A stretch of DNA of 64,000 nucleotides, taken from assembly GCA_027627225.1 (NCBI GenBank), contig CM051024.1:81376704-81440703 (forward strand), given 5' to 3'. The translations under genes and the position numbers were made by a program. Source of the stretch: Congeria kusceri (taxonomy: Eukaryota > Mollusca > Bivalvia > Myida > Dreissenidae). Of this stretch, positions 10,692-60,191 are shown piece after piece; within the stretch, counting starts at the first letter, position 1; each line of letters begins with the position of its first letter. The notes under the pieces are model-generated. The model did not search any database. It saw nothing but the letters and a program-made list of their open reading frames with translations, and was not told the DNA's origin.

Positions 10692-11613
10692 CTATGGTGG
10701 TCTCAATTCCACGTTTGATTTATTATACAACAATTGTAACGCGTAGTTCAATCCAAATGAAAACGTTTGGTCCAATTCCATCCCACCAGTCTGGAAACCG
10801 CCAAGGTGTACCATAGATACAGCTATTACCCTTGTTGCGCTTGGATTATTAATCAAATCCGCATTGCCCAGCAATCGGGGTATGCAAACCACAGAACCGC
10901 TGTCACCTTGGGCGGTAAACCTTTCATCTGAACCAGGTAAGTTGTCTATCACCACAACGTAACTGTTAAAAGGCTGTGCAGCTACAGGCAATGCTGGTGG
11001 CGGTAACTCCATGTCCGCAGACGAAATAATTCCAAATGTCAAACCAGATTCACCGCCATGTTTGTAAACGTTAATATGCAATATATTTGCACCTTGTCCA
11101 TCCCAAATCTCCCAGGGTCTGTTTAATCCATCCTCGTCTTTTATATTTGTCTCGCATAAGCGTTCAACATCATCGATTATTTTCAACGCCGTAAAGTCAA
11201 TTAGACGAAAGGAGGTTTCGGCAGAGCAAACTGTTAGATCTGGATTACTTCTCGCAAACAACATGAAATTGCCATCGCTATTTTTGATAAAAACATCTTG
11301 TTCTCTCGCGGGATAACCGAGCAAATGGGCGCACGTAAGGGCGTATTTCCTGTCGTTATCATCAAAAACGAACGCCCCGACTGTGCCGGTGTCAACCGAC
11401 CGTATGACATCTCCGTTTTCGTATTGTATGTTGGTAAGAGGTATTGGTGGTTTGGTCACTTTCTTAACCGACCACGGAAATTCAACACTGTGACGTTTCA
11501 TTATTTCCTTTATTTCTGAGCCAGCTTTCTGCACTTGTTCATTGTTAACCACTGATTCCAAATACACGGTAAATTGATTGTAGACTGTTCCAATACAATG
11601 CACCCCTTTAATG
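10692..11613 (-). CDS. Gene A exon 4 (protease domain, stop codon)
   Basis: The acceptor TTTATTTTCAG precedes position 11613. The exon begins with one base completing a split codon, encodes residues 402-707 and ends at TAG 10692-10694. It contains the whole catalytic triad, so the protease domain is a single-exon module. Confidence 0.88.
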
Positions 11614-14600
11614 CTGAAAATAAACAAGTACACAGAATATATTGTAAACAAATTGCACACATTACAGACAAAAAGACAAATTGCAACAAAAAGTGTATAC
11701 TTATAATGAATATTATATTTAGGAAAGCGTGTCTTACAAAGCAGAACAGACAATATACGTATAGGACCGTAGCTATGTTTACCCTAAAATTTCTTTTCGG
11801 GCAGGTGCTGGTACGACAGGGGCCTTTCGTAGCCAGTTAATCTTCTTTCCAAAAGAGGACTGCTCAAGGTAGCTGTTTACTTCAAACGACATCTTCATGC
11901 AAATTGTTGATTTCTTGGCATATTCGTTTTCTAGTTTTTGCACAAGAGGCCATACGTCTGTAATTATGGAGTTCACTAACTCTGAGTATTTGCATACTTT
12001 ATCTTTGTATTTCAATTTCTTTATGTCCTCTTCCATGATTTTTAAAAGTAAACCTTCGGTAGAAGATGCAATGTGGTATGTGAATTCGTCGTCGAATTGA
12101 GTATCAACAAGAATTCCCTGTGAAATGTGTGATGATACAGACAGTTTTTCATAAAACGGAAAAATAACTCGGCATTTTATTATCCTAGCTAGATTTAACA
12201 AAGTTTCGCGTCCAATTTTCCCTTCAATCCCTGGCGTGAGCTTCTCCATGGCACTTATGCCAGCCGCGATTGAGTTAATAGCGCGGTTTGTAGAAACGAA
12301 GTTCTCAAAATGGCTTGGGTGTATAGTTTCCTTATTGTCCCATGTTTCACTAGGAATAAGCAACTTCAGGCATTCGGCTACCTCTGAGAACCCGTCAACC
12401 AACTGCTGCTCAAAATAATCTGAAATGGCTGCAGGCAGGTCGGTGCTATCTATTTTGAACACCACTGACCATGACTTATTCCAGCTAAGTGGACGCCATT
12501 TCAACTGTTCATCAAAATCGTTTTGAATAATTGTGCGTTCTTGATCGGAAGATGTCTTGAACAGATTAACGGCAAAAAACAGCATACTTTCTTCAGAAGG
12601 GGATTCTTTGTTAAGAACTTCTAGGGCATCTTTTAAATTCTGAAAGGGATTCAGATGTATTAATGCATAAATAAGCATCGTAACAGGAGACTATCTTCAC
12701 TACCGATGGAACTATGTAAGTTACATAGTTTCCAATTCGTTCGAAAGTATGAATGTTTTTCAACGTATTTTGCTGGTTATATTTCCTTACTATATATGTA
12801 AGCAATCCAAATTTCCCACATAACATAACTTTAAATATTTAGAAAAATATGTATTTGTTAATAAAGCGTCGTCAAATTTAGTTCATGTTCTTGAATATTA
12901 ATGGAAAACTTAAAAATCGTTAATTTGTTGTTTTTTACGCAACTGTCTTCAACGCCAATACCAGCCTGGTAACCAGGGTTGTATAAGTTTTACTTTGACT
13001 TGATTTACAGACAGATAACATGGGTGCAGGGTATTTTAGAGTTCTATATAATATATTTGAACGTCAATGCCCATTACCTGAATGAAATGAGGGTCTTGTC
13101 CCTCTAAAAAGCACAGATACAACAGAGTTTTCGTATTCTCCTTGCCATCACTTTCTTCTGTTGATGTCGGTAGCGACGTCGGGTCAACACTGAATCTTTC
13201 TGTTGGGGAGTCGGATTTCGTTATTACTTTTATTTCAAGATCACTTTTAAACCTCGTAAACCTCTTTTTTATTGCTTCTAGTTGGTCCTGTATTTTCCAC
13301 TCCACCGATCCTGAAGGGAGGGCGTAAAGTATGCTGGTTATTGGCAATCAATATGTTTACGTCTAGTATGTTGTTTTTGGACAAAATGATATTTCATACA
13401 ATAAAATATAACACGATGTTTTGGTTATTCTGCCGGGCTCGGCTAGCTCAATTGGTAGAGCGCTAGACTGTAAATCTTTGGATCGTGAGTTCGAACCCCA
13501 GCCCGGCGACATAACTTGTGTGCGGATTGGTCATGAATTTATTTATACGGCCATTCTCCCCCTACCTCCGATTGAAGTAGGGCAATTGTCAGTTATGTGC
13601 ACTTAGTACTGGTAAACCGCTCATTCCGGCTAAGCTTGCCAAGGAAACATTGTATGAACAATTGCGTTTAATTCGATATTAAACCGAACGAAAACGTATT
13701 GTTTTTCCATGTTTAATCACATTTCTTGACACATAATTCCAACTAATTTTCAAAGAAGTTTAGATTAAAATGAAGTCAAATTATTCTTCCAATCCAAATT
13801 TACGTCGAGTTTAATTAAATGAAACATGTAATTAAACTTGAAATATTGTTCACCTTAAACGCGTGTTTGTTTGCAAATCAGTACCATTATACAACATTAA
13901 ACCCAACGTAAACGCCTATTTTTTCTCAAGTTTAATCACAATTTATGACGCACTATTAAAATTTAGATCAAATTTATACAAAATTAAGTTCGGTGTTTTT
14001 TTGACCAAATTTACGTTGAGTTTAATCAAGCGGTAATATTAAATCAAATTATACGAATTCATGAAAGAAAAACAAACCGTTATCCTTATAAAACGTATTG
14101 CTACAAAATAACTGTGTCATCATTGTAACGTCTTTTAATAAAAGGCGACGAGATTTTGAATATAATTGTGACAAGTGGAGAAACAGATCCGTTTTAGAGG
14201 TGAACTTCGGGATATTTGCGACGGGATGTGTGGAAGTACTTTGAAGGTCCGGATACTGGGAATTAGGAGCAAACGCCTTGGAATTATTATATTATGCTTA
14301 ATTTAAACTGGTTTCAGTCATTTACACATGGTCCTTATTGTGTTGGTGTGATATATCTCTGCTAGCACAAAAACGTGCTAACGTTAAAAAGGTATGGTTT
14401 GTTTGACGTTTCCAAAACGTTGCGGAATAACGTTACGATATAACCTGTAAATAACCTCATTATAACTTTACGTCAGACATTGCACAACAGAACTAGGAAG
14501 GTGGAGACAAAGAAAATCAAATGTTGCGCGTGTTCGGTCAATCCCAGCTAGATACCGAGAGATAAAGGAATGGTGTTAAATAACATCACTCAGTATCTCG

Positions 14601-16148: not shown

Positions 16149-17163
16149 TGATAAGATGTTTTAGTTTTGACTAAATATTTGAAATTATGACTTATTTTGT
16201 AAAACTTCTTACATGTTTCACAAAAGATAAGATAAAGTCAATAATCTACTTGCAAATATATAACGTTTTTACAAAGGAGAACCTATTATATATACGAGTA
16301 TTATTTCAATTAATAACACATTCACTATTTAGAGTTTTAATTTTTGTGACAAATTTTACCAAATAATTTCTGTCAAGCAAACTTAATCCATGTTCGATGA
16401 CATAAAGTAATTGTATTCATTTCATCACATTTAATGCAGATTCCGCATGTAATGAACACAACTTCCTGATCCTAAAAACTTCAAATATCAAAATCCAAGT
16501 AACCTTTGTGTTTCAAGTACAAATTAAATAAGATAATTGAAGTATTTTTTAAAACCGACAAAACGAAGTCAACTGTTCTCTAGAGCTATTTTTCATTTCG
16601 AATTGGGTTTTCCAAAGTTTAAAATACATATGATGGGATTTCGTGAAATACGAGCTGTCATGGTTTACCGATTACTTGAAATACAAGTTTCCCACACCCG
16701 ATTACGAAACACTTCGATATCCGTAACTACTTAAGTATAAATAGGAATGCTTCATAACATTCTTACTTAGAGTATGTACACACAAAACCTGCAAAACGTG
16801 CACATATCTCATATACTTCAACTCCTCTCTGGAAAGTTTCACCATCACGACCTGCTTTCAAGCGAAACTTTGTGCTGGTTTCCAGATAGTTTCTTCATGT
16901 TACGTTAAACCTTTACGACTGGGAACCATAATTGTTTTCGTCCCAAATTCATTTCAAACATTTGACAACGAAAGTTGGACGTCTGTATTATTGGTTACCG
17001 GGGGAATTCTGTAATATTGGTTACCGGGGGTAATTCTTTTAATCGATCGTTGAAGTACATAATATGATAATTTGTTGGTAGTTGCATAAAATGTAAACCA
17101 CTAGATTATACACCAACACGTAATCAGCCATTAAGTTGATGAACTTGTATGGAACGCCATGAT
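16149..17163. other. Gene-free stretch
   Basis: AT-rich DNA. A 26-bp near-duplication (ATTGGTTACCGGGGG at about 16991 and 17019) is the only structure noticed. No gene is supported. Confidence 0.5.
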
Positions 17164-18112
17164 GTCTTATGTCGTCATGATTCGTGTTGTCTTGTTTAGG
17201 ATTGTCTTATTATGTCAAAAATAATGTCGTTATGTTAAGATTTAGTTTCATCATGTGCTTTGATTTGTCGAACTTTTCAAACAATTATGTTATTTTGTCA
17301 AAAAAATCGTGTCATTATGTGAAAATAGTGTTTCATCATGTGCTACGATGAGATGAATTTGTCAAAAGTATATCTTATCATTTCAAAAAGACCTGTCATT
17401 ATGTTAAAATATTGTTTCATCATGTGCTAAGAGTATGTGAACTTGTCAATATAATATGTTATTATGTCCAAAAGACGTGTCATTATGCTAAAATGTTGTT
17501 TCATTTAAGATTAGTTGAACTTGTCAAAAGTATATGTTGTTATGTCCATAGGACGTGTCAGTATGTTAAAATGTCGTTTCATCATGTGCTATGGTCAGGT
17601 GAGTTTGTCCAAAGTATATGTTATTATGTCCAAAAGACGTGTCATGATGTTAAAATATTGTTTCATCATATGCTATGATCAGGTCAACTTGTCAACAGAC
17701 TATGTTATTTTGTCAATATACTATGTTATTGCGTCAAAATTACGTGTCATTGTGTTAAAATACTGTTTTATCATGTGCTTCGATCAGGTGAACTTGTCAA
17801 AATTATATGATATTATGTTTAAAAGACGTGTCATTATATTAAAATGTTGTTTCATCATGTGGTCTGGTCAAGTGAACTTGTCACAAGTATATGTTATCAT
17901 GTCTAAAAGGCGTGTCATTATGTTAAAATGTTGTTTCATTATGTGCTCTGGTCAGGTCAACTTGTCAAAAGCATATGTTATTATGTCCAAAAGACGTGTC
18001 ATCATGATTAAATGCTATTTTATTATGTACTTAGACTAGGTGAACTTGTCTAAAGAATATGTCATTTTGTCTAAAAGACGTGTTATTATGGTAAAATGTT
18101 GTTTCATCGTTT
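17164..18112 (+). repeat. 84-85-bp minisatellite array, left arm of an inverted pair
   Basis: About eleven diverged copies of a unit reading GTGAACTTGTCAAAAGTATA, then TATGTCCAAAAGACGTG, then TTTCATCATGTGCTATG. The spacing is 84-85 bp. Copies are most alike from about 17400 to 18060 and more degenerate at the left. The same unit occurs in the opposite orientation at 25328-25620. Open frames across this array are by-products of the repeat. Confidence 0.9.
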
Positions 18113-18305
18113 ATTATTCTAATGATTTTGTACATTAAACTGGTTATTCTATCATATACACATGTTTTTTGTTGATATATGATTTTAACTTGTCAAGACT
18201 TAGTCTTATCATGTCTACAGTTAATTCGTTTTGTTGCATCTACGTGTTGTCTTGTCCAAATGTCATGTTGTTGTTGACACAAATTTATTGGAGTGTAACC
18301 ACGAA

Positions 18306-18548
18306 ATGGCGGGAAATCAGAGCACGATGGAGCCATTGGAGGAAGTTCTCACTCACGCAGGATTGCCTGCATTAATTAATAAATTTAAGTCCGAAAAAAT
18401 AGAAGTAAGCGCAATCGCAACGCTTTCCGATGAGGATATAGTGCGCTTGGGAGTGGTCACTATTGGGGATAGATTGCGCCTGAAAGAATGCGCTAAACAA
18501 AAGCAGATTCGTACCACAGACTTGAGTATAGTCTATATAGAGTTCTAG
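18306..18548 (+). CDS. Small SAM-domain-like protein (possibly a first exon)
   Basis: An 80-residue frame from ATG 18306 (a second ATG at 18327). Residues about 8-66 look like a sterile alpha motif: LEEVLTHAGLPALINKF, then SAIATLSDEDIVRLGV, then GDRLRLKECAKQK. This is the five-helix pattern with the usual L..LxDEDL..LGV core. SAM domains mediate protein-protein oligomerisation. The frame may stop here at TAG or splice onward; no strong donor was found. It starts about 190 bp inside the left 84-bp array and points inward, mirroring the SAM-HTH exon at 25159. Part of the same mobile unit is the favoured reading. Confidence 0.6.
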   Translation: MAGNQSTMEPLEEVLTHAGLPALINKFKSEKIEVSAIATLSDEDIVRLGVVTIGDRLRLKECAKQKQIRTTDLSIVYIEF

Positions 18549-18887
18549 ATCTAGTTTTTTTTTTATACCAAATCTTAGCTGTACCTGAATCAATACGACT
18601 TGTGTGGTATGTGCTACGGATTTTGAAAGACGATAAGATCACTAATAAGCTGGATCCATGGCATAATCTATGGACACGTTGCTGTGGTAAAATTATTGAA
18701 CTGTATGAATAGATAACGACTAACCCCATTAATGACTCGTGCCATGTTGTCATAACAACAGATAGTTGTTGACCATTTACTCATAACAGTGGTATTAAAG
18801 GGACCTGTTCACAGATTGGCTAATTGAAAAAGACTTTCAATATTTTTATACCCCTACTCTTTGAAAAAGTGTGGTTTATATATGAAT

Positions 18888-19645
18888 TGTGCATGTTGGT
18901 CCGTACGTAAGTACGCCGGTACGTGCGTCCATTATTGTGTTTCCCCTCCATAACTTCGTAACGCCTGGAAGGATTTTAATAACTTTATTATTCCCCATGA
19001 CCAGACGATGTGTCGCGTACCTGACCCATGCGCGTCAATCAAAAGGTCATGGTTACAATTCAATACATCTTTTTTACTGCCGCTCCATAACTTCGTAATG
19101 CCTAGAAGGATTTTAATATAACTTGATATAAATATTTACTATGACCAGCAGTTGTGTCGGGTACATGACCCATGCTTGTCCTACAATGGTCAAGGTAAAT
19201 GTTTTTCATTTCCGCTTCATAACATCTTAATGCATGGAAGGACTTTAATACAACTTAAGATATTATTATTCCCCATGACCAGAAGATGTAACGCACACAT
19301 GACCAATGCTTGTCCTTGAAAGGGCAAGGTAACAGTTGAAGGTAAAAGGTCAAAAACTTGTATTTCGTTTCTGCTCGGTAACTTCTGAATGCCTGAAAGG
19401 ATTTGAATATAACTTATTATTCCTAATGACCCCATGTCTCGCATACATGACTTAATCTTGTCTGTCATAGATCAAGGCACAATTCAAGGTCATATATTTG
19501 TATTGTATTTCCACTCCATAACTTCTTAGTGTCTAGAAGGATTTTAATATTACTTAACATTGTTATACTTCATGATCAGATAATGTTTCACGTATGCTTT
19601 CCATTCTTGTCTGTCAAAGGTCAAGGTCACAATTCTACGTCTGCA
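18888..19645. repeat. Degenerate tandem repeat, about 135-160-bp unit
   Basis: The motif CATAACTTCGTAATGCCTGG, or close variants followed by AAGGATTTTAATA, recurs near 18948, 19084, 19219, 19379 and 19520. Between copies are CCATGACCAGA, CATGACCCATGCTTGTC and GGTCAAGGTCACAATTC. This composition is familiar as an abundant mollusc repeat. No coding potential. Confidence 0.8.
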
Positions 19646-19649
19646 TCCG

Positions 19650-20690
19650 CGTCTAATCTTGGTTTATACAGTTTATCATCAAATGTCTTGTATCTTCAAA
19701 ACTACATGTTATTCACTTCAAACTTGGAATATACCTTTGTCATTTACTACAGCATCAGGTGCAACATTTCCACAATTCAGATTTGTATTTTGACAGAGTA
19801 ATGCGCCTTTTTGCACATAGATTTTCTTGTTTTAAGTTTATATTCAAAAGTCTTACGACTTGACAACTACATAAGTTATTCACTTCAAACTTGAAATGAA
19901 CCTTTGTTATCAACTCCCAACATCAATTGCAACATTCCCCATAACTCTATTTTGTATCTTGAAAGAGGTATGCCCCTTTTTCACATAGATTTATGTTTAA
20001 AGTTCATATTCAAACGTCTTATAACTTCAAAACTACACCACAAGTTATTCACTTAAAACTTGGAATGTACCGTTGTCACCAACTCTAACATCAAGTGCAA
20101 CATTTCCCAAAACTCAATTTTGTATTTAGCAGAGTTATGCCTCTTTTTCACATACATTTTCGTGTTAAAGTTTTAATTAAAAAATCTTGTAACTTTAAAA
20201 CTACAGAAGTTATTCACTTGAAACTTGGAATGTACTTTTGCAACATTCGCTATAACTCTGTTTTGTATTTTGGCACAGTTATGTCTCTTTTTGCACATAG
20301 TTTTTTCAGATTTAATTTGTATAACTTAAAACTTGATAGGTAATCCAATTGAAACTTGGAATATACATTTGTCATCATTCATCATTGCCACAATCCACAT
20401 AACCCTGTTTTGTATTTTGACAGTTTTATACTCCTTTCCCCAAAGATTTTCAGTGTTACGTTTCTATTCAAAAGTCTTGTAATTTTTAAACTACATAAAG
20501 TATTCACTTGAAATTTGGAATACGTCCTTGTAATCAACTCCAGCATCAGGTGCAACAATCCCCATAACTCGCTTTTTGTATTTTGACAGAGGTATGCCCA
20601 CTTTTCACATAGATCTCGGGGTTAAAGTTTTTGTTCCAAAATCTGATAATTTCTAAACATGTATACGCATTGTATTTCAACAAATGTATA
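19650..20690. repeat. Second degenerate tandem repeat, about 145-170-bp unit
   Basis: The landmark CTTTTTCACATAGATTTT recurs near 19806, 19975, 20140, 20283, 20431 and 20596. Each copy also has AAAACTACA..GTTATTCACTT, GAAACTTGGAATGTAC and CAACATTTCC. It abuts the previous array, but the units are unrelated in sequence. Confidence 0.8.
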
Positions 20691-22512
20691 AAACATCCCT
20701 AATTACCGGTCATGAAAATGTGGCTGCAACGTCCCAAAATATGGAGGTCAGATTATCAACAACCGTAAATTTAAAATACTAGTAAATTCCATTATAATGA
20801 ATGTTGAACTATTAAAGTCTCTGTTTTCAGCTGTTAATTATTATTCTAACATTACATTTACTGAATATTCTATATACAAAAAAAATACAACAAATTTTCG
20901 TTGTTAATCTACCAATAAACAACGCAAACAAGTATTTTGTTATTGACGTCATAATGAATTTGTATCAAGGAATGACGTCACTAGCGTTCGAACGTTCGCT
21001 CGGGAAGTTGTGCGGAACATAGTAAAATGTAGTTTTCAATACAATTGCAAAAAAATCAGATCATTTTAGAATCGAAATAATATTCAATTTATCGTTGTTT
21101 ATCCGCCAGTAAACAACTCTTTGTCGTTCTTATGCGTGGCTATTAAACTACATACTGGGCTTACGCCCTCGTCGTTTAATTTGTCCCCATCAGAAATGTC
21201 TTGGCCGATAAACAACGATAAATCGAATATTATTATACGTGCCATCTGAAATGGCCGCATACTCATATGGCGGGTTTTTGTATAGATCTTGATCTAACGT
21301 TCGCTTAGCTCAAACATATTTTATCGCAATAGATCTAGTAGCCTACCTTGTGTACGTCTTAATAAATTATTTGTCCTGTTAATTTTAAACCTTGATCGTA
21401 TTTTAATAATTGTGTCGTTTTCAACTTCTAAACATGTTGTGTTCTTTGAAAGCATACCTTATGTTATTCCAATGCTTTTAATCGATCACTAGAATAGACA
21501 ATTCTATGTAAAAATGTGTATGGTGGTTAGAGAATTCTTAGTGAATACTTTAAAAAATGACCTACAAAGTTTTCTTCAGAAAAGGGTTTAGATTTTTGTG
21601 AATTTGGATTAAAATTGGATTCAATTAAATTTTAACCGATACCTGGTACGTCCTCTAAACAAGTGTGGTGACCTAAACTCGTTTGTTCATGAAAAAACAT
21701 AGGAAAAACTACCGAACTCGCCTTTAACAAAAATGAACAGAACTGTACACGGCACACAATTTTACTGTTCATGATGTAAGGTAAATCTTAAAAAACTATT
21801 ATCCGACACCACTGGATCAAGTCAGAGTGGTGATAGTGAAAACTAAAAAGAAAAAATCGGCACATATCTTAAATATTGGCGTATAACCGCCAACTTTGAC
21901 ATTTCCATCGAAAGGAACAAGTTGAGAATGAATGTTGAAGTTGAGCTAATAAATTCAAAATGTCGCTTCGTAGTACAAATTATGATTTATTTATGTATTC
22001 ACTACCAGCATGGGTAAGTAATGATCTCAGCAAGATATGTGTAAATATGTATACATCTGAAACACATACATATTAAACTACATCTTTGTTCCCAAAGCTT
22101 ATATACTTTGAACGCATTAATATGACTTGCTAAAATAACCTGTTGTCAGCTATTATGTATGTATTATGTATGTAGAGTCTACACTCTATTGTTCATTGCA
22201 TAGCTAAAATGGTACTAATCTGTACTTATTTTGCCGTAAATATCAAAATACTTTTATATAAATGTACACCATGCGAGGTTAGTAACAGCAGTTGTGGTAA
22301 ATATTAGATTAACACAATTTGTTTTATAATTGACATATTATTTTATAAAGATACATTTATTGTATAAAACATGGTACAGTTATGGCTCACTGCCTTTCCA
22401 TTGCATTTATCTGGTGACCGATATAGGATCTGTAGTTCATAAAACATCTTCCCATTATCTGGGAAAGTGCCTATTGGGTCAACTGCAATTAACTGACCAC
22501 CACACATTTTTG
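20691..22512. other. Gene-free stretch containing one small MITE-like palindrome
   Basis: Apart from the inverted repeat at 21076-21234 and a partial relative of its end near 20890-20935, nothing is recognised. The stretch lies between the SAM ORF and the C-terminal part of the integrase pseudogene. Confidence 0.5.
21076..21234. mobile_element. Small palindromic MITE-like element
   Basis: AATAATATTCAATTTATCG at the left pairs with the right end, where CGATAAATCGAATATTATT closes at 21234. The arms are about 29 bp, and both continue with GTTGTTTATC. The 159-bp length and lack of a frame fit a MITE. A target duplication could not be defined. Confidence 0.65.
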
Positions 22513-23010
22513 TCAAAACCAATTAGGGATTTCATTATATTCACGCGCTATTCTGAATACATTTTGGTAAACGTTGATACCGAAATTTGGACAAACCCAG
22601 TTTCTAGGACACTCGCGCGCAAGTCGAAGTAAACACTCATCGTTTATCTCTGGATGGTCTATTTGAAAAACCGGTGTTTCATTAATTTGAGGAATGTTTT
22701 GACTATGCTGTACGGGCGGAAGTAAATCCAATGTATCTAATTCGCCGTTCAGAACTCATGCAGTCCACAAGCGCATAGGTGATGTACCCACGGTCCTCAG
22801 TCTGTGGGAAGCCCAGGCTTCTCTCCATATATTGAGCTTTTCGTTTATTTTGTGCAGGTATGTATAATGCAGAGAAATGCAAGGGATTTAGAAAGCTCAA
22901 AATACTTTCATCTTCCATAAATAAAAAGAGCTGATACAAGTGAGCTAAGACTCCTTCATATACGTCGCGCCAGAGTGTCTCAATTCTTAGGTTGTGTGTG
23001 CTTTTTCCTG

Positions 23011-23262
23011 TTAGAATTCCACGGGCTCCTCTTTTTCGTACATAAATTCGACAATTCTTATGTTTTCCAGGCCTTGATCAGTTCTGACGCAACGAGGCAT
23101 ACCAAACTTGTATGTAGCTTCACAGAACACCTCTAGAAGCGACTCAGATCTGTTGTTATCTAAACAGCGTAAAGCAGTCACTAGTCTGCTGAATCCGTCT
23201 ATTGCACCTGCAATGACAAAGCCCCACCTAATAATTTTGTGATTTGTATCCACGTGCCACAT
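23011..23262 (-). pseudogene. Integrase core segment (first and second catalytic Asp)
   Basis: The longest intact piece of the integrase core, 83 codons from ATG 23262, covering WHVDTNHK, AIDGFSRLVTAL and CVRTDQGLEN. It is part of the pseudogene above and is listed because it is the most searchable portion. Confidence 0.75.
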
Positions 23263-24229
23263 ATGTTTGGTCCTTGAACGTGATCAATGCGCCGGTGCAA
23301 CCTTCCAAGTTGCCGTTCTTTTATGCCATTCTGATCGTGCTGATGTAGAATATCTCGAAGTCTGTACCGAGGTATCTAAAACACATAATTCCTATAATGA
23401 CTCAGATCTTGTAATGAAATAAATATAAAAGAAGTAATTTACTGTTATTTACAAACTCGTACCATTTTCCTACCACTTAAAACACGGTCTGTAATCACTA
23501 GTGCCACCTCTTTTTGGAGATGCATTGGAAAACGAGCCAATTATACTTCATAGGTGGCGCTAATGACAGAAAGTAGTAGGAACAAGTAAAAACAGTGATA
23601 GAAGGTGAGTTGGGTTTATATGTTTTATAACCATTTGTGACACTGTTTTAAAAATTGGACAATGTAGTGCGATTTGGAATCAATATTACCTTGCAAAAAT
23701 GTAGAGAAGTATGAAGAAGTCACAACGCATTTTAAAACGTCAGGATTTTCATAAGTTGTTACATGGTTAAAATTGAACCAGGTAATTGATGAATTTGAAC
23801 GTGTTAAGACGTAATTTACACACAATTAGAGCATTAATGGCTTAAATTAATTACTTTCGAAATGTATTATTTGCTGCGTTATCAAAAATGTTGGTTTGAC
23901 GTCGATTAAACATACTATTTTGCATTTTCACGTAAGAGGTGGAGCCAAAGCAATGGAGGTGGCGCTCAGAACAGGAGTTGGAGCCAATGCATATTATATA
24001 GTTTGAAGAATTGACAATTTTATTAACGTTTCATTCTACATTTCGTGATAAGCATTACATGTATAATCATATTGACCATTTAAATTGTCACAAATATCAC
24101 TTAAATAGTATCTTTTGTAGTGCATGTATACAGTTCATCTTAACAAGTCTGCAAATTCAAGTAAGGTGTACGATTCTTTAAGGATTTGTAATGAATCGAA
24201 ATCGAACACATTTGAACCTTATACACGCC

Positions 24230-24419
24230 CCGTTCCAGAAGCGACCCTGGGTCTTTTAGTGCCCGGTGTGAAGCACCTAGTACACTGCACCTCGGTTTAA
24301 CGTCTCATGCGAAAGACGAGGAAGAAGGTTAGGGTGTAGCGGGGGGCTCGAACCTGCGACCCCTGGGTTGCGAAGCCGATGTTATTCCACTAGACTACGC
24401 ATCCGCCACAAGCTTTATA
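24230..24419 (-). mobile_element. tRNA-derived SINE inside the integrase intron
   Basis: On the minus strand a tRNA-like head runs from 24419 (GTGGCGG) to 24336 (CCGCTAC), with the A-box region TAGTCTAGTGG and B box GGTTCGAGCCCC. The acceptor stem pairs fully with one G-T, but the anticodon stem does not form. A body containing CCGAGGTGCAGTG and GGTGCTTCACACCGGG follows. A separate B-box-like relic (GAGTTCGAATCC) lies on the plus strand near 24498. Family and 3' end are uncertain. Confidence 0.6.
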
Positions 24420-24691
24420 TCGATACGCGCATGCGCGCTATTGATAAATGCATTCTAACCTATGGATGTTTCCATTTAAGTGCGCGATTTCATAGGCGCG
24501 AGTTCGAATCCTGCTGGAACCGTGTATCGAAAAAACAACATTTTTGGCGTTCTATAAATTTTTCCGTCAATATAATGTGTTGTTTAATACGTGTCTATAT
24601 AAATACCGGCGATATGTCCCTTTAAAAGCAATTCCTACCAAACTAGATCATATATCAATATTCGAAATATACAGTAGAACGACATATTTAC

Positions 24692-25159
24692 TATGATATT
24701 TTTCTGGCGGAGGATCTCAATTAACATTCGTTCTCCACACCTGGGAATTTCCTGTAATGTTTCTTTTACTACAACAGTTCATTGCTCATCGTCTATTTCC
24801 GTGAACAGAAGTTTCTTTAATCCAAATGCTCGCATTCGTCGGTAGATTGTACTTTCAGAAACACCGAGTAATTGAGCAATTTCAGTTATAGTAAAATTAA
24901 TGTTTATCAAATATTCTAAATAGTCTTTTGGTATCACATACACAGGTGCCCCTCCACCATTCCCCGGTAACGAACTTGGTTTAGAAGGTCCATAAGGAAT
25001 ATAGGCTATCCTCAGTTTCATGATTTCACCCCTGTCACTGAGTCCTACACAGTTCATTTCATATAACGACATCTTGCACACAATATCAGGAGAAATATTT
25101 TCATTTTTAAATGCATGTGTAAGTCGCTCTAATCCAATGTCTTTCAATATCTTCTCCAT
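24692..25159 (-). pseudogene. Exon 1 of the integrase: SAM plus helix-turn-helix
   Basis: Open for 126 codons from ATG 25159 to the TGA at 24779. The reading frame resumes directly after the stop with family-like sequence, so the TGA is probably a mutation. The start lies about 170 bp inside the right-hand 84-bp array. Confidence 0.75.
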
Positions 25160-25327
25160 GTTAAATTACACTAGTTATTTATTAAATTACAGACACGCTT
25201 AGTATAACAGTTTATAATCTAAACGTTCATAATAACAAAGCTATTAGACATAACAAAACACCGATCTGACAAGTTGACATTACCCGATAATAAAACAAGA
25301 TGTGAACATTGCATAACACATTCTTTT

Positions 25328-25620
25328 TTGACAAGTTCACCTGATCATAGCACATGATGAAACAACATTTTACCATAATAAAACTTCTTTTTGACATAAT
25401 AAGATATTGATTGACAAGTTCACCTAATCATAGCACATGATGAGACCACATTTTACCATGAAGACACGTCTTTTAGATCTAATAACATATACCTTTCAAA
25501 AGTTCAGCTGATCCTAGCACATGATGAGACCACATTTTACCATGAAGACACGTCTTTTGGATATAATAACATATACCTTTCAAAAGTTCAGCTGATCCTA
25601 GCACATGATGAAACGCCATT
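25328..25620 (-). repeat. 84-bp minisatellite array, right arm of an inverted pair
   Basis: About three and a half copies of the same unit as at 17164-18112, reverse-complemented: GACAAGTTCACCTGATCATAG then CACATGATGAAACAACA. The CACATGATGA landmarks fall at about 25353, 25436, 25520 and 25604 (84-bp spacing). Confidence 0.88.
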
Positions 25621-25639
25621 TGATCACTTTTTTATCAGA

Positions 25640-25990
25640 ATACCTCATTCCAAACACGTTACTATGTATATTCTTCAACATTTGGTCATGCTTTTATAAA
25701 AATACTAAAACAAAACACGTTACTATGTATGTTCTTTAACATTTGGTAATGCTTTTATAAGAATACTAAAACAAAACACGTTACTATGTATGTTCTTTAA
25801 CATTTGGTAATGCTTTTATAAGAATACTAAAACAAAACACGTTACTATGTATGTTCTTGAACATTTGGTAATGCTTTTATAAGAATACTAAAACAAAACA
25901 CGTTACTATGTATGTTCTTTAACATTTGGTAATGCTTTTATAAGAATACTAAAACAAAACACGTTACTCTAAGTAGTCTGCAACATTTGA
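25640..25990. repeat. Minisatellite, 61-62-bp unit, six copies
   Basis: ACACGTTACTATGTATG starts at 25653, 25715, 25776, 25837, 25898 and 25959. The copies are nearly identical except the first and last. Degenerate relatives (CGTATCTATGTTCTGTAAC) continue to about 26050 and faintly to 26450. Confidence 0.93.
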
Positions 25991-26074
25991 ACAGGATTTT
26001 GTGAGAACATTAAAACAAAATACGTATCTATGTTCTGTAACATTTGATCAGGCAATACGTATACTGAATACAAA

Positions 26075-40810: not shown

Positions 40811-41873
40811 TTACTGACATCTTGGCCATGTAAAACGAATGTTTGATTTTAACCTCAATAACATGAGTCCAGTCTTGAGCATGAAAGAAACACTCTGTTT
40901 TGATGTCTTCCCTTCTACTATCATTTCGCCAGCATGGATCATTGACAGGGCAAACGTCCTTGGTTGGTGAACATTACTTATCATCTCGCGATTGTTTATT
41001 AGATTATCAAAACAAACTATAGATCCGCTGTCACCTCTATCCGAAAATGGCCCACCGAGTTTTACATCAGGAAGACTGTCGATCATGATAATATAACTGT
41101 CGGGCGGCTGTAAAGCTCCCGATAAGTCTGGACAAGGAAGCTCCAAATCAGCGCTTGCAATCAACCCGCAAGTTAACCTTGTTCGAGCTCCAACTTTATA
41201 AACCCTTTTACCAACCACATCCGACTGCTTGCCTTCGAACAATTCTATCGACCTAGGTACACCATCGTCGTCCGTAATGTATGGATTACAATACGGCACT
41301 ACGTCCTTTTTAACCTTAACTGCGGCAACGTCAACAAGAGCGAATGTTTGAATTTCGCCGAAGGAAACGGTCATTTCTGGCGAACTGGTTGCAAAATCGT
41401 TAATGACCTGTCCGTCGTCTATGAAAACATCATGTTCAGGATAAGGACTGCTTACCACATGGGCGCATGTCAAACCAAATGCATGACCAGTTACATCATT
41501 AACAATTCCACCGAGAGTTCCAAACCGGTAGTTTTGAGAACCATCACGATCTGTAGAACCGCCAGGCATCTGATTTGGCCAAGGAGAACAAATCGACGTG
41601 CCAAATCCAACAGCCAACTGAGCAGACAATTTAACGCTTACGACCTCAATGGCATACGGATAATGGAAGCCATTATGCTTCATTATTTTTTGAATTTGTT
41701 GACGACAATCCGGTTTGTGAATTCCAATGCTACCTTCTACTTCCATCGCCTCCAAGTTGCCAACATGCTTTACGTTACTTCCCTTCTTCTCCAGATTTTC
41801 TGCATAGTATTCTTGTTTTAAATAAATCTTGAATTCGTTGTAAACTGTTCCGATGCAGTACACGCCATCCACA
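40811..41873 (-). CDS. Gene B exon 4 (protease domain, stop codon)
   Basis: The acceptor TTGCTTTCAG precedes 41873. One base completes a split codon, then 353 residues and TAA at 40811-40813. The upstream GTG at 41872 is not a start; it is the first full codon after the intron. Confidence 0.88.
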
Positions 41874-44800
41874 CTGAAAGCAAAATCAGCTGAACATTAG
41901 TAACAAGAACAAGATGTTACTCTGTTACTGTATGGAGGAAATGGATAGGAAACAAAGAACGTTAATAATAGTATAACTATAAATTATTCTCATCAACTCA
42001 ATTTAAAATTATGGAAAACATTCAAAAAAGGCTGATCGTGTAGATGTCTTCAAACTTTACACTGTTCGTTGTATACATCAACTGTGAAAATACAGTATTA
42101 AAACATTTTTTTTCGCGTCTTAAAATGGAATTTTAATTATGTTACCTCAAAAGTTCCTTTCTCAAATCTAATGGTACGACTGGAGGTCTGGATATCCAGT
42201 GAACATCATTTCCGAAAGATGACTGTTCCAGATAACTCTTGACTTCAAATGACATCTTCTTCATAATAGCGAGTGTTTTCCTCGTTGACTCACATTTTTC
42301 ATCCAAAACTTGAATGACAGCCGAAATGTCATTTCTTATCGATGAACCCAATGACCTACACCTCGAACAATCTAATTTGGAGTACTTTGACGCATTCAGT
42401 ATTTGATTCTTTGTATCTTGTGAAATATGTTCGGCGAATCGTGTTTCGTAGTCAATTCCTTCCAGAATAAGATTAACGGTTTTTGCTGGAACTGCGTATT
42501 TGTGGACACAATAATGAAGCAAAACGCTACATTTAAACATCCTGCTTAAATGCTTTTTGTCAAGAGTGGTGTATGCTTTGGTTTCCTGTTCCGTTTCCAT
42601 TGGCCCTGCGATAGCAGTATCTCCTGTTTTAAACTCACGTATATAAGCATTCATATCACAGTGAAAATGTCCTGTGTGAAAATAGTTCTCAACATCAACA
42701 TCTTTTCCTTTTGGAAGTCCGATTGTAATACCAACTGACAATAAACATTCGTTGATCAAGCCCAAGATATGCGCTAAGTTCTCTTCTATGTAATCCGAGA
42801 TGGTTGTAGCAACTTCGAGTTGCCCGGAACCAAATATCACCCTGCTTATGACCTCCCTTTTTGAGTTGATGTAACTGTCGACAATTGCTTGCTCCGAGGG
42901 CGACGGACTATTTGCAAGGTCCACAATGCAAAACAAAGGCTCTCTAACACAGAAGTTGGAGTAAAGATAATCCAAAACATGATCCAATGTCTGAAGAAAA
43001 ACATTACAACTGCTTTTGCATACAAACTGTTCTGAAGTTTTAAATGGTATATCATCGTAATGTCATGGATATATATGGGCATATGAAACGGATGTGTCAC
43101 AGACAAGGATGCCCCCATGACAAATGTTTGGACACAGACAAAGGGTGTGTCGGCAACAGTTAGTTTTGCCTCCACAAATATATTTTCATATATATTATAT
43201 AGTGGAAAGAAAAAAACAAAAGGTCATAATTCGGCTGAAATTCGTCACAGCTTGAATTCCTTCCTGTACGATAAGGTTCTTCAGCTGTGAACGATTCAGC
43301 GAAATCCGCCAAGCATTTAAAGACGACTTGAGTCCGCAAAATTTCGGAAAGTATGTATTCTACAGTGGAAAAAAATTGACAAATGGCCAAAATTCTGCCC
43401 ATATAGGTCGCACCCCAAATTCCTGAACTACAAATTAAGGCTTTTTAACTGTGAAAGTTTGAGCGAAATTCGCCAAGCAGGTTAAGAGGAGTTGAGTGTG
43501 CTAAATTTCGGGACGTACGCACGGACAGACGGACATGTGCAATGCTCAATGCTTCCCACTTTGTGGGGAGGGGGCGCATAAAAACGCAGCTATAATCACA
43601 TTTGCCACATTTGAAACCCAAATAAATACTGAACCTACACCACCAACTACTACATAAAAGGATAGTCGAGAGCTTTTTGTACAACAAACAAGAAAATGGC
43701 CTTTTCCAATCCAAAATAGCTTTTGACCTAGTGATCTTTTTACACGCAAATGACACGTACTCAAAATATGACATTGATTTTATTAAGGCAGTTAATCTGG
43801 TCCTGTTTTGAAGAAGATCTGATGGAAAATAGGTCTCCTTGTAGACCCATTTTTGATAATGCACATACACAAATCAACTTTATAGTGTCTCATAAACATG
43901 GAATCGTCAGAGAATCAATACGTTTTTCGCATAATTTGACCTACAAACCTTGTTTCCAGCACATTACCCATTGTAAAATGTGTCCTTATTTTATCGTGGC
44001 AATTAATCTTAAGTTTCAATACAAATAGATCACAATTGAGTGTTACAAAGACTGTCATAATACGATCTGGTAACCTGGTGTTCGATCCTATATGTCCAAA
44101 TATAAAACTCTGTGTAGATTTTAATGAGGACATAAATCTAACAAAGACTGCGGCTTGTTGAGTGAACATTGTAGACCTGTAGACATTGTATAGCAATTAT
44201 TGACGCCACACAGCCGCATGACGCAAGAGGCCGGACATACACCTAACGTAACAACTACAAAGATGTTAAGATGTTCTCAATACAAAGATGTTCTCATGTG
44301 AATTAAAACATAAAACTGCACATTGTTTTCATGATTGTTTTTTTTATTTAATTAATTTAAGTTTGTGTGATTCATTGTAAAAAAACACACGTTTTTCCTT
44401 GGTATACCTGTCTGAAATTATCATCCAGCCCCTGTCCTTTTACATAGCACAGATAGACTCGTGATCCTGTTGCACTGTGAGGCGACTGTGGCTCTGCATT
44501 ACGGTCGACAAAGGTATTTTCTTTCGGAAGGTCAGCATTTCCAACTAGGACCATTTCCAAATCATTTTGATACCAAGTGAAAGCGTCATCAATTTTCCAC
44601 ATCAAGTCAAAATTGATGTTGAATGGAAGAAAACCTGATCATATATTTATGTGTTTCTCTGTTATTGTTACATAATTAAAGCAATGCAAATTGTATAAAA
44701 TCAAGACTTGACCTTGCATTAGCATAAAATAATGTTATTGTAAACTGTAAAAGGGAACTGCAATACGATTCAAGGTCTTACCAATAACACGTTTGAATCG

Positions 44801-51749: not shown

Positions 51750-51855
51750 AAGGACTTTAACACGCTTTTGAGAAAAGTGGATATTTTATTCATCACTGTG
51801 TCGGGATCAGGACTTTAACACGTCGGATATTTGCAATTATATTCTGAACAAAGCC

Positions 51856-52959
51856 ATGGGACCAAAACGCCAAAATGAGAAGGACTCTTGTAATGGCGAA
51901 GAAAGTGTTGATGATGAAATATTACATTTGCGAGAAAAGTTACATTTAGCAGAGACAGAAAATGCACAATTAGAAAGAAGATTAAGGACTGGTGAAGAAG
52001 CAGCCGTGCACCAACGAGATGAGCTTGTGAGACAATATCAACAACGTATAAATGACATTAATACAGATAAAGAGAAACAAATCAATGACCTTCAGCAAGA
52101 AAATAGTTTGTTGCGTGAACAGTCTCAAAATGGTAGTCAGAGGCGCGCAAGCAGTGGGGCAGAACGACGTAATTATGAGGTTCCTATGCCCAGGCAACTA
52201 TTGTTTGACGGGAAGTCTTCTTGGGAGAGCTTCATACATCCGTTCTCTGAGATGGTCAACGCGTGCAATTGGGACGAACAAGAACGACTGTTTCGTCTCA
52301 AAAACAGTTTGAGAGGAGAAGCAGCAGAATATACTTTTCGGCAGCTTGCAACAGACACGCTGAACAATTATGACATCCTGAAATCAGCCTTGGAGTTGCG
52401 GTTTAAGGAGAAACGTTCCGTCTCATCATACCTTGCTGAACTTGAAACAAGGCGTTTCAACAAGGAAAAAGATAAATTGGCAGAATATGTTGCGGATATC
52501 AAACGGCTTGTGTTGAAGGGTTTTCCGACCGCTGATTACGAAACACGGGAAACTATAAACATGCGCCACTTCCTGAAAGGCCTGTTAGATACACAAGCAG
52601 CAGTATTCATAGGAATGAAGGAACCAAAAACAATAGACCAAGCTCGTGATCTATTGGAAACGTACCAGAGCCTACGGGAAGAGGTCAAAGGGGCGCGTGT
52701 CAGAACTGTCGAGTCGAAACCACAACAACATGATTATGTAACAGAAGCAAGACTCCAAGATTTGGGTCGGGATTTGAAAACAAATATTGGAAAGAAGATC
52801 GATAATTTAGCAGACAAGCTAAATAGTAAGAATGGTGGTCAAAGGCAGCGTTTCACAACACGTGACAGGAAAGACATTGAATGTTTCAGATGTCATCGCC
52901 GTGGACACTTCGCATCTGAATGTGCTACAGATGTCGAAAATAACCGTTCGGAAAACTAG
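51856..52959 (+). CDS. gag: Gag polyprotein, copy 1
   Basis: 367 residues from ATG 51856 (GCCATGG context) to TAG. An N-terminal coiled coil (about 20-95, rich in E/Q/R heptads). A retrotransposon Gag capsid region about 105-260 (LLFDGKSSWESF, LRGEAAEYTF). A C-terminal CCHC zinc knuckle C343-x2-C-x4-H-x4-C356 (CFRCHRRGHFASEC). Gag packages element RNA in cytoplasmic particles. It overlaps the pol frame by 16 nt, in the -1 relation. The frame is intact. Confidence 0.93.
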   Translation: MGPKRQNEKDSCNGEESVDDEILHLREKLHLAETENAQLERRLRTGEEAAVHQRDELVRQYQQRINDINTDKEKQINDLQQENSLLREQSQNGSQRRASSGAERRNYEVPMPRQLLFDGKSSWESFIHPFSEMVNACNWDEQERLFRLKNSLRGEAAEYTFRQLATDTLNNYDILKSALELRFKEKRSVSSYLAELETRRFNKEKDKLAEYVADIKRLVLKGFPTADYETRETINMRHFLKGLLDTQAAVFIGMKEPKTIDQARDLLETYQSLREEVKGARVRTVESKPQQHDYVTEARLQDLGRDLKTNIGKKIDNLADKLNSKNGGQRQRFTTRDRKDIECFRCHRRGHFASECATDVENNRSEN

Positions 52960-58981: not shown

Positions 58982-59087
58982 AAGGACTTTAACACGCTTT
59001 TGAGAAAAGTGGATATTTTATTCATCACTGTGTCGGGATCAGGACTTTAACACGTCGGATATTTGCAATTATATTCTGAACAAAGCC

Positions 59088-60191
59088 ATGGGACCAAAAC
59101 GCCAAAATGAGAAGGACTCTTGTAATGGCGAAGAAAGTGTTGATGATGAAATATTACATTTGCGAGAAAAGTTACATTTAGCAGAGACAGAAAATGCACA
59201 ATTAGAAAGAAGATTAAGGACTGGTGAAGAAGCAGCCGTGCACCAACGAGATGAGCTTGTGAGACAATATCAACAACGTATAAATGACATTAATACAGAT
59301 AAAGAGAAACAAATCAATGACCTTCAGCAAGAAAATAGTTTGTTGCGTGAACAGTCTCAAAATGGTAGTCAGAGGCGCGCAAGCAGTGGGGCAGAACGAC
59401 GTAATTATGAGGTTCCTATGCCCAGGCAACTATTGTTTGACGGGAAGTCTTCTTGGGAGAGCTTCATACATCCGTTCTCTGAGATGGTCAACGCGTGCAA
59501 TTGGGACGAACAAGAACGACTGTTTCGTCTCAAAAACAGTTTGAGAGGAGAAGCAGCAGAATATACTTTTCGGCAGCTTGCAACAGACACGCTGAACAAT
59601 TATGACATCCTGAAATCAGCCTTGGAGTTGCGGTTTAAGGAGAAACGTTCCGTCTCATCATACCTTGCTGAACTTGAAACAAGGCGTTTCAACAAGGAAA
59701 AAGATAAATTGGCAGAATATGTTGCGGATATCAAACGGCTTGTGTTGAAGGGTTTTCCGACCGCTGATTACGAAACACGGGAAACTATAAACATGCGCCA
59801 CTTCCTGAAAGGCCTGTTAGATACACAAGCAGCAGTATTCATAGGAATGAAGGAACCAAAAACAATAGACCAAGCTCGTGATCTATTGGAAACGTACCAG
59901 AGCCTACGGGAAGAGGTCAAAGGGGCGCGTGTCAGAACTGTCGAGTCGAAACCACAACAACATGATTATGTAACAGAAGCAAGACTCCAAGATTTGGGTC
60001 GGGATTTGAAAACAAATATTGGAAAGAAGATCGATAATTTAGCAGACAAGCTAAATAGTAAGAATGGTGGTCAAAGGCAGCGTTTCACAACACGTGACAG
60101 GAAAGACATTGAATGTTTCAGATGTCATCGCCGTGGACACTTCGCATCTGAATGTGCTACAGATGTCGAAAATAACCGTTCGGAAAACTAG
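59088..60191 (+). CDS. gag: Gag polyprotein, copy 2
   Basis: Encodes the same 367 residues as copy 1 with the CCHC knuckle intact. Offset exactly 7232 bp. Confidence 0.93.
   Translation: MGPKRQNEKDSCNGEESVDDEILHLREKLHLAETENAQLERRLRTGEEAAVHQRDELVRQYQQRINDINTDKEKQINDLQQENSLLREQSQNGSQRRASSGAERRNYEVPMPRQLLFDGKSSWESFIHPFSEMVNACNWDEQERLFRLKNSLRGEAAEYTFRQLATDTLNNYDILKSALELRFKEKRSVSSYLAELETRRFNKEKDKLAEYVADIKRLVLKGFPTADYETRETINMRHFLKGLLDTQAAVFIGMKEPKTIDQARDLLETYQSLREEVKGARVRTVESKPQQHDYVTEARLQDLGRDLKTNIGKKIDNLADKLNSKNGGQRQRFTTRDRKDIECFRCHRRGHFASECATDVENNRSEN

Follow-up and report, generated by a model that had tools for sequence, protein, structure and literature searches.

The window, a 64,000-nucleotide stretch of the genome of the bivalve Congeria kusceri, contains two tandem-repeat arrays in opposite orientation that enclose two inward-facing genes (Table 1). 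A sequence-only reading had described the arrays, a SAM-domain ORF on the left and a helix-turn-helix and DDE gene on the right, and all of these were confirmed in our analysis. By TRF, the 84-bp unit forms arrays on the forward strand (17207-17716 and 17710-18108) and again at 25333-25611; aligned in inverted orientation, the left and right arrays agree at 74-79% across about 300 bp (E down to 1e-67, 64-kb window). The element's left end lies at 17148, not at 17164 as first proposed, while the right terminus is absent from this copy: homology to other copies ends inside the array near 25621, and a 61-bp array of another kind adjoins the truncated array at 25630. Compared with a fuller copy at C1:93801084-93835315 (C1d), the window copy is colinear at 92-95% apart from a single gap of about 25 kb; around 3 bp at the junction are common to both sides, and the retained interior follows C1d except for about 60 bp. 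The 8.5 kb originally taken as the size of the element is therefore the size of a deleted remnant of a larger one, internally deleted and cut at its right end, as seven copies of the same family in which both termini are present are 26-36 kb long.

Table 1. Features of the element copy in the window. Positions are those of the window; a dot marks features to which no strand is assigned.
Feature	Position	Strand	Basis
Outer edge of the element: left terminus TATGGAACGCCATGA.. with a short spacer	17148..17206	+	Terminus matched in other copies
Array of the left end, repeat unit 84 bp (4 x 21 bp)	17207..18112	+	TRF, autocorrelation
SAM exon, ATG at 18306; predicted first exon of a SAM-C2HC-HECT-like gene, orphaned here	18306..18548	+	PF00536
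Junction of internal deletion of ~25 kb, relative to C1d	18747..18750	.	blastn against C1d pieces
Interior, containing tandem repeats of 134 bp and 168 bp	18747..22330	.	93-95% to L031
Transposase exon 2, rva_4 (PF24764) DDE core, frames broken; 3' end approximate	22515..23375	-	
Predicted transposase intron, GT..AG	23376..24691	-	Read from sequence
Transposase exon 1, predicted SAM fold and helix-turn-helix, one in-frame stop near 24780	24692..25159	-	
Truncated array of the right end, inverted, ~13 sites	25328..25621	-	TRF, inverted match, autocorrelation

The sequence-only reading had proposed that the unit should recur elsewhere in inverted pairs with an integrase between them, and searches of the window's own 1.55 Gb genome bear this out. 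The matches listed were grouped into 41 array clusters, 27 of which stand in inward-facing pairings, with one outward adjacency; 13 of the 14 inward pairings among these matches span 25-39 kb. A SAM exon lies inside 12 of the 14 pairings (among the matches listed), and an rva_4 match inside seven (150 of 922 candidates being scored). All ten of the pairs that were fetched contain the SAM-HTH exon, with the flank 94-98% conserved, and eight of the ten copies keep the left SAM exon at full length in the inner flank. The 14 clusters without a listed partner, four of which have neither gene listed nearby, would suit an independently dispersed 84-bp minisatellite that happens to neighbour separate SAM genes. 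The inward pairings, conserved inner flanks and matching termini led us to reject an independent minisatellite, and together with the target duplications described below they reduce the likelihood of chance neighbours practically to nil.

Fuller copies end in TATGGAACGCC...GGCGTTCCATA, and the terminus of the window's family was matched at 17 of 20 ends of ten other copies. TATGG..CCATA termini are present in four divergent families of 16-36 kb (families 1-4, family 1 being that of the window copy). The terminus pattern has 417 exact matches against none for the reversed pattern, and 21 inward and no outward neighbours occur among the 100 matches listed. The search for target duplications, suggested in the earlier reading, was positive: perfect 6-bp duplications flank 8 of 12 copies with both ends (3/7, 2/2, 2/2 and 1/1 in families 1 to 4), a count that leaves out the family-3 copies on C5 and C9, where the right end was not reached. 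The other family-1 copies comprise two of the seven with no duplication, one with a single mismatch and one with a 7-bp repeat instead; the left end of the C9 copy lacks the TATGGAACG start. A 27-kb pair at C1:27913886 has the terminus and was dropped as another type, having no clear array and flanks that are inverted rather than direct. Inward pairings, common termini and target duplications thus uphold the proposal of one large mobile element, and the inverted arrays at its ends that of terminal inverted repeats made of tandem arrays.

Polinton/Maverick-type proviruses have a similar size range and likewise duplicate 6 bp of target, and they too possess an integrase and long inverted repeats; they additionally carry a protein-primed DNA polymerase and capsid genes. 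Neither gene was found among the 16 ORFs or exons scanned (9 of 15 ORFs of at least 100 aa in C1d pieces, one from copy C1b of family 1, four from family 3 and two from family 2), and the transposase is of the rva_4 type with SAM-HTH, in an element whose termini fit IS3EU. A provirus of this kind is accordingly very improbable.

The right gene is a SAM-HTH-rva_4 DDE transposase that is broken in the window copy. Its rva_4 core matches PF24764 in two pieces (E 8e-29 and 2e-13), with the rve match under the cut-off, and the helix-turn-helix of its first exon matches PF13384 just above the cut-off (E 1e-5). The window frame carries an in-frame stop and several frame breaks; the frames are split alike in C1d and C1b, and the core of C1d has an open frame of 288 aa. 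No SAM family appears for the window's first exon among the best 25 of 42 Pfam families, and in family 2 the Pfam match to SAM reaches no better than E 0.098. The predicted structure of the N-terminus (mean pLDDT 82) is SAM-like, as had been suggested: Foldseek names SAM in 48 of the best 50 rows, with a best E of only 0.03, and TM scores by target reach about 0.77, the best match being the tankyrase-1 SAM (TM 0.76 by target, rmsd 1.8). On this model the N-terminus is a predicted five-helix SAM fold. Whole-model structure lists are dominated by the DDE core, whose neighbours are Tn7 TnsB and IS21 IstA, and are uninformative on the SAM part. A tRNA-like stretch was noted by eye near 24330-24400, within the predicted intron.

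The left ORF of the window matches SAM_1 above the cut-off (PF00536, E 3e-8), and its exon has 93 matches in the genome. We dropped its interpretation as a stand-alone SAM accessory protein once family 3 showed C2HC and HECT exons downstream of a related SAM exon. The SAM of the left gene also passes the PF00536 cut-off in family 2 and falls below it in family 3 (E 0.009). In 12 homologs from other sources the SAM and C2HC parts share one frame, and in homolog P0137 the HECT end is fused to the C2HC part; the SAM match is below the Pfam cut-off in four of five homologs, and there is none in P0137. The HECT C-terminal exons match PF00632 in family 3 (E 2e-9) and in C1b (E 7e-9) over profile positions 230-289 of 306, approximately the last 50-60 positions only, and the match of P0137 is confined to positions 231-280. 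Translations of both exons contain T-C-x-N, which we take to be the motif of the HECT catalytic cysteine region. The supposed first HECT exon of family 3 has no Pfam match and was placed by likeness to P0137. None of the 132 HECT matches listed lies in a family-1 copy; for this family the ligase is supported by the C1b exon and by a 337-aa exon of C1d, for which Pfam gave no family and which C1b lacks. The only Pfam match of a 342-aa exon, to glutaredoxin, is under the cut-off and was not accepted. A protein search with the 80-aa SAM exon found nothing within a length window too narrow for the full protein. Among the family-1 SAM exons dN/dS is 0.23-1.08. By comparison of these sequences, the left ORF is the predicted first exon of a SAM-C2HC-HECT-like gene of E3 ubiquitin ligase type, the remainder of which would have been lost from the window copy through the ~25-kb deletion. 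The caution that this ORF might belong to a spliced host gene was half right: the gene looks spliced, but it travels with the transposon.

Fuller copies contain two convergent genes, one beginning just inside each end. Among the matches listed, 38 of the 39 HECT exons with an rva_4 match within 45 kb are convergent to it. Counting any convergent partner within 45 kb, so are 56 of 57 SAM exons (150 of 922 rva_4 candidates being scored); if just the nearest neighbour is considered, the split is 51 convergent to six divergent, and we attribute the latter to adjacent elements. For 34 of 91 SAM-exon matches no rva_4 match occurs among those 150 candidates. The left SAM exon and the SAM-HTH-rva_4 transposase agree with the suggestion that two SAM proteins, the recombinase being one, face inward, and a profile match joins the two SAM domains (E 2e-11). 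The nearest solved chains to these domains are Bicc1 (E 6e-4), Shank weakly and, by fold, tankyrase, whose SAMs are polymer-formers.

The SAM-HECT gene might instead be a passenger, a captured host-type ligase without a role in transposition. The ligase exons are lost from some copies, including the window's, and the gene appears dispensable in cis because many elements with the TATGG..CCATA terminus measure just 0.7-10 kb; nor is the profile match proof of a common origin within the element, as any two SAMs may match. Fungal IS3EU elements carry quite different extra genes (PMC12730594). The near-invariant convergence of the HECT exons speaks against a passenger, as do the persistence of this layout with SAM exons 38% to 100% identical to the window's and the occurrence of relatives of both ligase and transposase, each with a SAM, in other sources, and we consider a passenger unlikely.

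The repeat unit of the arrays had been given as 84 bp. The array is real, but its base unit is 21 bp (84 = 4 x 21): autocorrelation of the window's left array gives z(21)=4.9 and z(84)=7.8, and it would hold about 42 sites, assuming near-21-bp spacing. All ten arrays examined from families 1-3 show the lag-21 signal, as does family 4; each of the nine interior stretches tested, including repeats, lacks it, and the element's interior in the window has no 21-bp period. The period is not strict, with steps of 19-23 bp, and the best lag is 84 in family-1 arrays and 131 in the right arrays of family 2. These arrays could have arisen by ordinary, foldback-like satellite expansion, in which 21 bp is merely an inherited unit length and not the spacing of phased binding sites; tandem repeats of other kinds abound in these elements (units of 134, 143 and 168 bp among them), and the four families may have inherited one ancestral 21-bp unit. 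Against this, the consensus units differ between families (mostly 10-15 of 21 positions alike) while the period at the ends is common to all four, and the interior repeats lack it. Expansion of this kind is, on balance, an improbable though serious account.

The proposal of an undescribed system gives way to a known superfamily: the element agrees with IS3EU in its termini and its target duplication, and is a probable new variant and not a new kind. IS3EU elements are described as having TA..TA termini, usually 6-bp target duplications, and an integrase-like DDE transposase without an HHCC finger (PMC10045372), and fungal TET+ members end in TAYGG..CCRTA (PMC12730594). The clam elements agree with these descriptions in their termini, which satisfy both patterns, in their 6-bp duplications and in an rva_4 transposase without an HHCC finger, its N-terminus being SAM and HTH by model and Pfam. 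They differ from those two published accounts in their size of 16-36 kb, the 21-bp-period arrays, the SAM of the transposase and the SAM-C2HC-HECT-like partner. In the fungal TET+ elements, the transposase and an alpha-kinase gene lie in opposite orientations (PMC12730594), resembling the clam arrangement of transposase and second enzyme gene; there, however, the second enzyme is a kinase (plus a TET/JBP dioxygenase) rather than a ubiquitin ligase, in fungi rather than a bivalve. IS481EU was rejected, its published target duplications being ~4, ~15 or ~25 bp against 6 bp here. DNA pattern and protein scans of IMG/VR viral contigs gave no relatives, and a literature search, with subscription journals and Repbase Reports mostly outside its reach, found no SAM- or HECT-bearing DNA transposon and no transposon-encoded HECT ligase.

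Taken together, the window very probably holds one copy, truncated and with an internal deletion, of a giant DNA transposon that has ends of the IS3EU type and whose fuller copies carry convergent SAM-C2HC-HECT-like and SAM-HTH-rva_4 genes. We tentatively propose a mechanism that we regard, as a whole, as somewhat less than an even prospect. The helix-turn-helix of the transposase would bind the 21-bp sites and, because 21 bp is two turns of B-DNA, the bound proteins would face one side of the DNA. Along each end their SAM domains could join head to tail, helping to pair both ends, after which the DDE core would cut and insert with a 6-bp stagger. Array binding may also regulate both genes, since each of the two start codons has an array a short way upstream of it in families 1 and 2. 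The ligase would be recruited through its own SAM and would ubiquitinate a putative target there, whether the transposase complex or, on the host side, chromatin or repair factors. That a mixed SAM filament on tens of helically phased sites at each end recruits the HECT ligase by way of a SAM similar to that of the transposase, with local ubiquitination controlling transposition or the host response, is possible but rather doubtful.

If these readings are correct, the clam genome holds at least four DNA transposon families with lengths of about 16-36 kb; in at least three of them a SAM gene faces a SAM-bearing or rva_4 transposase, and two have HECT exons in the copies read. The engagement of the ubiquitin system by a transposon would then be open to direct testing, some of the HECT and SAM 'genes' annotated in bivalves would turn out to be transposon genes, short-period terminal satellites could be understood as platforms for the transposase, and these elements would allow study of the reasons for which multi-site ends and polymer-forming domains arise in transposition.

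Tandem repeats inside terminal inverted repeats are a feature of Foldback/Galileo-type elements, reportedly including Tetris, and the clam termini share it; the Foldback (Galileo/FB) transposase is of P or MULE type, whereas that of the clam is rva_4, and in the clam a conserved non-array terminus lies outside the arrays. Tn7 and IS21, to which the DDE protein is similar in structure, are bacterial, with few sites rather than tens and with neither a SAM domain nor a ligase; Tn7 ends carry several transposase sites of about 22 bp.

The element in the window is very probably the deleted remnant of a giant IS3EU-type transposon with convergent ligase-like and transposase genes. Tandem Repeats Finder recovers the inverted 84-bp arrays described in the sequence-only reading, and the two align with one another as inverted copies, 74-79% identical over ~300 bp (E to 1e-67); a Pfam profile bears out the SAM-like domain of the left ORF. 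The right gene had been read as SAM-HTH-DDE; the HTH, the rva_4 integrase core (PF24764), which lies beyond an intron recognized in the sequence by its GT..AG ends, and a modeled SAM fold agree with this, but the frames of the core are broken and the gene has an in-frame stop.

Against C1d, a 34.2-kb copy of the same family (F1) at C1:93801084-93835315, window positions 17147-18749 align to the left end and positions 18747-20689, 20687-23547 and 23552-25621 to the right part, all at 92-95%. Around 25 kb of C1d between these parts is absent from the window copy, and ~3 bp are shared at the deletion junction. On these alignments the window copy is a remnant of a larger element. The proposal of a single mobile element holds, but not its size of ~8.5 kb, as seven F1 copies with both termini span 25.8-36.3 kb from terminus to terminus. 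A 61-bp tandem array (window 25630-26033), in which no 21-bp period was found, adjoins the truncated right end. In another F1 copy, C1b, a stretch missing from C1d holds an ORF which we take to be MULE-transposase-like (L035:2052-2750), and this stretch is a probable nested insertion.

Coordinates of array, ORF and exon features in the window and in a family-3 copy
Feature	Position	Strand	Evidence
Left array, 84-bp unit	window 17207-18108	+	Tandem Repeats Finder
Right array, 84-bp unit	window 25333-25611	-	Tandem Repeats Finder
Left ORF, SAM domain	window 18306-18548		PF00536, E 3e-8
Right gene, exon with HTH	window 24692-25159	-	profile match
Family-3 SAM exon	L044:2420-2767		PF00536, E 0.009, under cut-off
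Family-3 342-aa exon	L044:4350-5375	same as SAM exon, downstream	
Family-3 exon with motif found at HECT start of homologue P0137	L044:6732-7157	same	no Pfam match
Family-3 HECT end exon	L045:1155-1436	same	PF00632, E 2e-9

A sharp terminus, TATGGAACGCC.., was found at 17 of the 20 ends of ten fetched copies; in the window it lies at 17148 on the left. The right terminus is lost in the window. The expected target duplications were found elsewhere, where perfect 6-bp ones flank eight of twelve two-ended copies. These are three of seven in F1 (the other four comprise one single-mismatch duplication, one 7-bp repeat and two copies without duplication), two of two in each of the divergent families 2 and 3, and the one copy of family 4. 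The latter families measure 16.3 kb (family 2, two copies), 19.8 and 21.7 kb (family 3) and 18.9 kb (family 4). A thirteenth pair, at C1:27913886-27940794, was set aside from this tally for its inverted flanks and lack of a clear array; it spans 27 kb, carries this terminus at its inverted ends and, with its identical inverted flanks, resembles a large palindrome. The terminus pattern has 417 occurrences genome-wide and its reversed control none, and among the 100 places listed, 21 neighboring termini within 45 kb are inward (0.7-36 kb), none outward and eight same-strand. Eight same-strand termini at C2:98375200-98402601, with ~3.8 kb in five of seven spacings, mark a small element that bears this terminus and is repeated in tandem. 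An ORF crosses the outer edge of a family-2 copy on C8 (L049:1994-2284), and this copy may therefore lie inside a gene.

According to one account, IS3EU elements have TA..TA termini and usually 6-bp duplications (PMC10045372). The element here has both, and by these features we file it as a putative giant IS3EU-type variant. Its new parts, as far as the literature searched extends, are the ligase-like gene, the pair of SAM domains and the arrays with 21-bp period, with Repbase Reports and subscription journals mostly outside it.

Searching the 1.55-Gb genome with the array gave at least 170 matches, with 40 of 278 candidates scored; the matches listed were grouped by eye into 41 clusters. Among these, 27 clusters form 14 inward pairings (two share one right array), 13 at 25-39 kb and one at 15 kb, so that the 84-bp unit does recur in inverted pairs; one adjacency is outward and 14 clusters are unpaired. 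As for the integrase between paired arrays, the SAM-HTH-bearing right inner flank occurs in all ten fetched pairs (94-98%), and an rva_4 match is listed inside seven of the 14 pairings, with 150 of 922 candidates scored. The SAM exon is listed inside 12 of the 14, and the left inner flank carrying it is full length in eight of the ten fetched pairs (88-96%), reduced to a 42-bp piece in one and missing from one. Of the unpaired clusters, ten are accompanied either by rva_4 at up to 45 kb or by a SAM exon at up to 5 kb; for four, neither was found among the matches listed.

The left ORF does encode a SAM domain, but in family 3 the SAM exon appears to lead a multi-exon gene with a HECT end. In F1, a 337-aa exon of C1d matches the family-3 342-aa exon (39% identity, E 3e-65); in C1b this exon is missing and the HECT end exon is present (E 7e-9). 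Among 20 homologues of the 342-aa exon, 13 were aligned, and 12 of these hold the SAM region, a C2HC finger motif and a common C-terminal motif in a single frame. P0137, which lacks its start, continues to the HECT C-terminus. In five homologues scanned with Pfam, SAM (four) and PF18574 (three) scored under cut-off, and the HECT match of P0137 was over cut-off at positions 231-280 only. Two homologues and transposase matches come from contigs of identical size (5388 and 468268 bases), which suggests that the two genes may be linked in other sources.

The convergent arrangement recurs across the genome. The SAM exon has 93 matches in several divergence groups, 91 after discounting two split fragments; with 150 of 922 rva_4 candidates scored, a convergent rva_4 lies within 45 kb of 56 of them (53 distinct rva_4 matches), one has rva_4 in another orientation only and 34 have none among those scored. 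Counting the nearest rva_4 only, 51 are convergent and six divergent. The 132 HECT matches listed take in ordinary host genes; 39 have rva_4 within 45 kb, 38 of them convergent and one same-strand. With positions shuffled, on average 7 and at most 12 HECT matches had any rva_4 within 30 kb, versus 39 observed; the control is rough, given approximate contig sizes and crowding on small contigs. Twenty-three SAM exons have a same-strand downstream HECT match within 35 kb, followed in 20 by a convergent rva_4; none of the 132 listed HECT matches falls inside an F1 copy. We consider it unlikely that the ligase-like gene is a passenger, one of the two main rivals. Family-3 elements recur every ~20-20.8 kb along the small contigs C459 (both orientations) and C741, a local amplification.

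The transposase second exon of C1d is an open 288-aa frame, and family 2 carries SAM-HTH-rva_4 in a single open frame (L049:1-1251); for the window, the nearest named transposase relative is a Mercenaria mercenaria protein (72%). AlphaFold2 models, each built on an alignment of 63 sequences, have five helices at the N-terminus. For a 126-residue model, 48 of 50 listed Foldseek rows name a SAM domain, the best being tankyrase-1 (5kni, TM 0.76 by target, rmsd 1.8), with E 0.03 at best among the rows listed. Retroviral integrases, TnsB and IstA are structural matches to the modeled DDE core. The profiles of the ligase and transposase homologues match with a probability of 97 (E 2e-11) across their SAM regions, which indicates likeness and not common origin inside the element, because SAM is a wide family. 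By sequence, the left SAM is closest among solved chains to Bicc1 (E 6e-4), with a weak match to Shank (E 0.02); the SAMs of Bicc1, Shank and tankyrase form polymers. Co-assembly of the two SAM domains is plausible. F1 SAM exons give dN/dS of 0.23-1.08; the ratio is undefined for three pairs, and two loci enter the comparison twice.

In all ten arrays from families 1-3, lag 21, two turns of B-DNA, gives an identity 4.1 to 12.5 standard deviations higher than lags other than multiples of 21. Identity is highest at lag 84 in the four F1 arrays, at 131 in the two right arrays of family 2 and at 21 in the remaining four. Near the termini, additional arrays of family 3 and the two ends of family 4 reach z of at least 3.6 in the outer 400 bp; no 21-bp period was found in nine interior stretches (z -1.4 to 2.3), 134- to 168-bp repeats included. 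Assuming steps of 19-23 bp, the site counts are ~42 and 13 for the window copy, 40 and 31 for C1d, 22 and 28 for family 2, 79 for one family-3 array and 18 and 34 for family 4; steps are mostly 21, with slips. Unit sequence varies between families and the period is kept, a pattern that would follow from transposase-specific sites under a fixed geometry or from inheritance of an ancestral unit.

The HTH would bind these phased sites, and the SAM domains would link the bound proteins into filaments that would pair the element ends; binding would also autoregulate both genes. We tentatively propose a mixed SAM filament, with the transposase on the 21-bp sites and the HECT ligase recruited through its SAM for local ubiquitination. 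The other main rival, that the terminal arrays have no function, is doubtful. The 21-bp period is not strict, however; this looseness, the partial recognition of HECT and the lack of any listed HECT match inside an F1 copy slightly lower our confidence both in the mixed filament and in the IS3EU-type remnant.

Elsewhere in the window, two head-to-tail retrotransposon copies (51772-57208 and 59004-64000), called Gypsy-like on reading the ORF list, have identical ORFs 7,232 bp apart, which suggests a tandem arrangement. An Rfam tRNA match at 13437-13508, with no ARAGORN call, could be a SINE head. Two minus-strand copies of a two-ORF gene (10692-12690 and 40811-43062), similar by eye, lie ~30 kb apart and contain GDSGS, presumably a protease-like motif.
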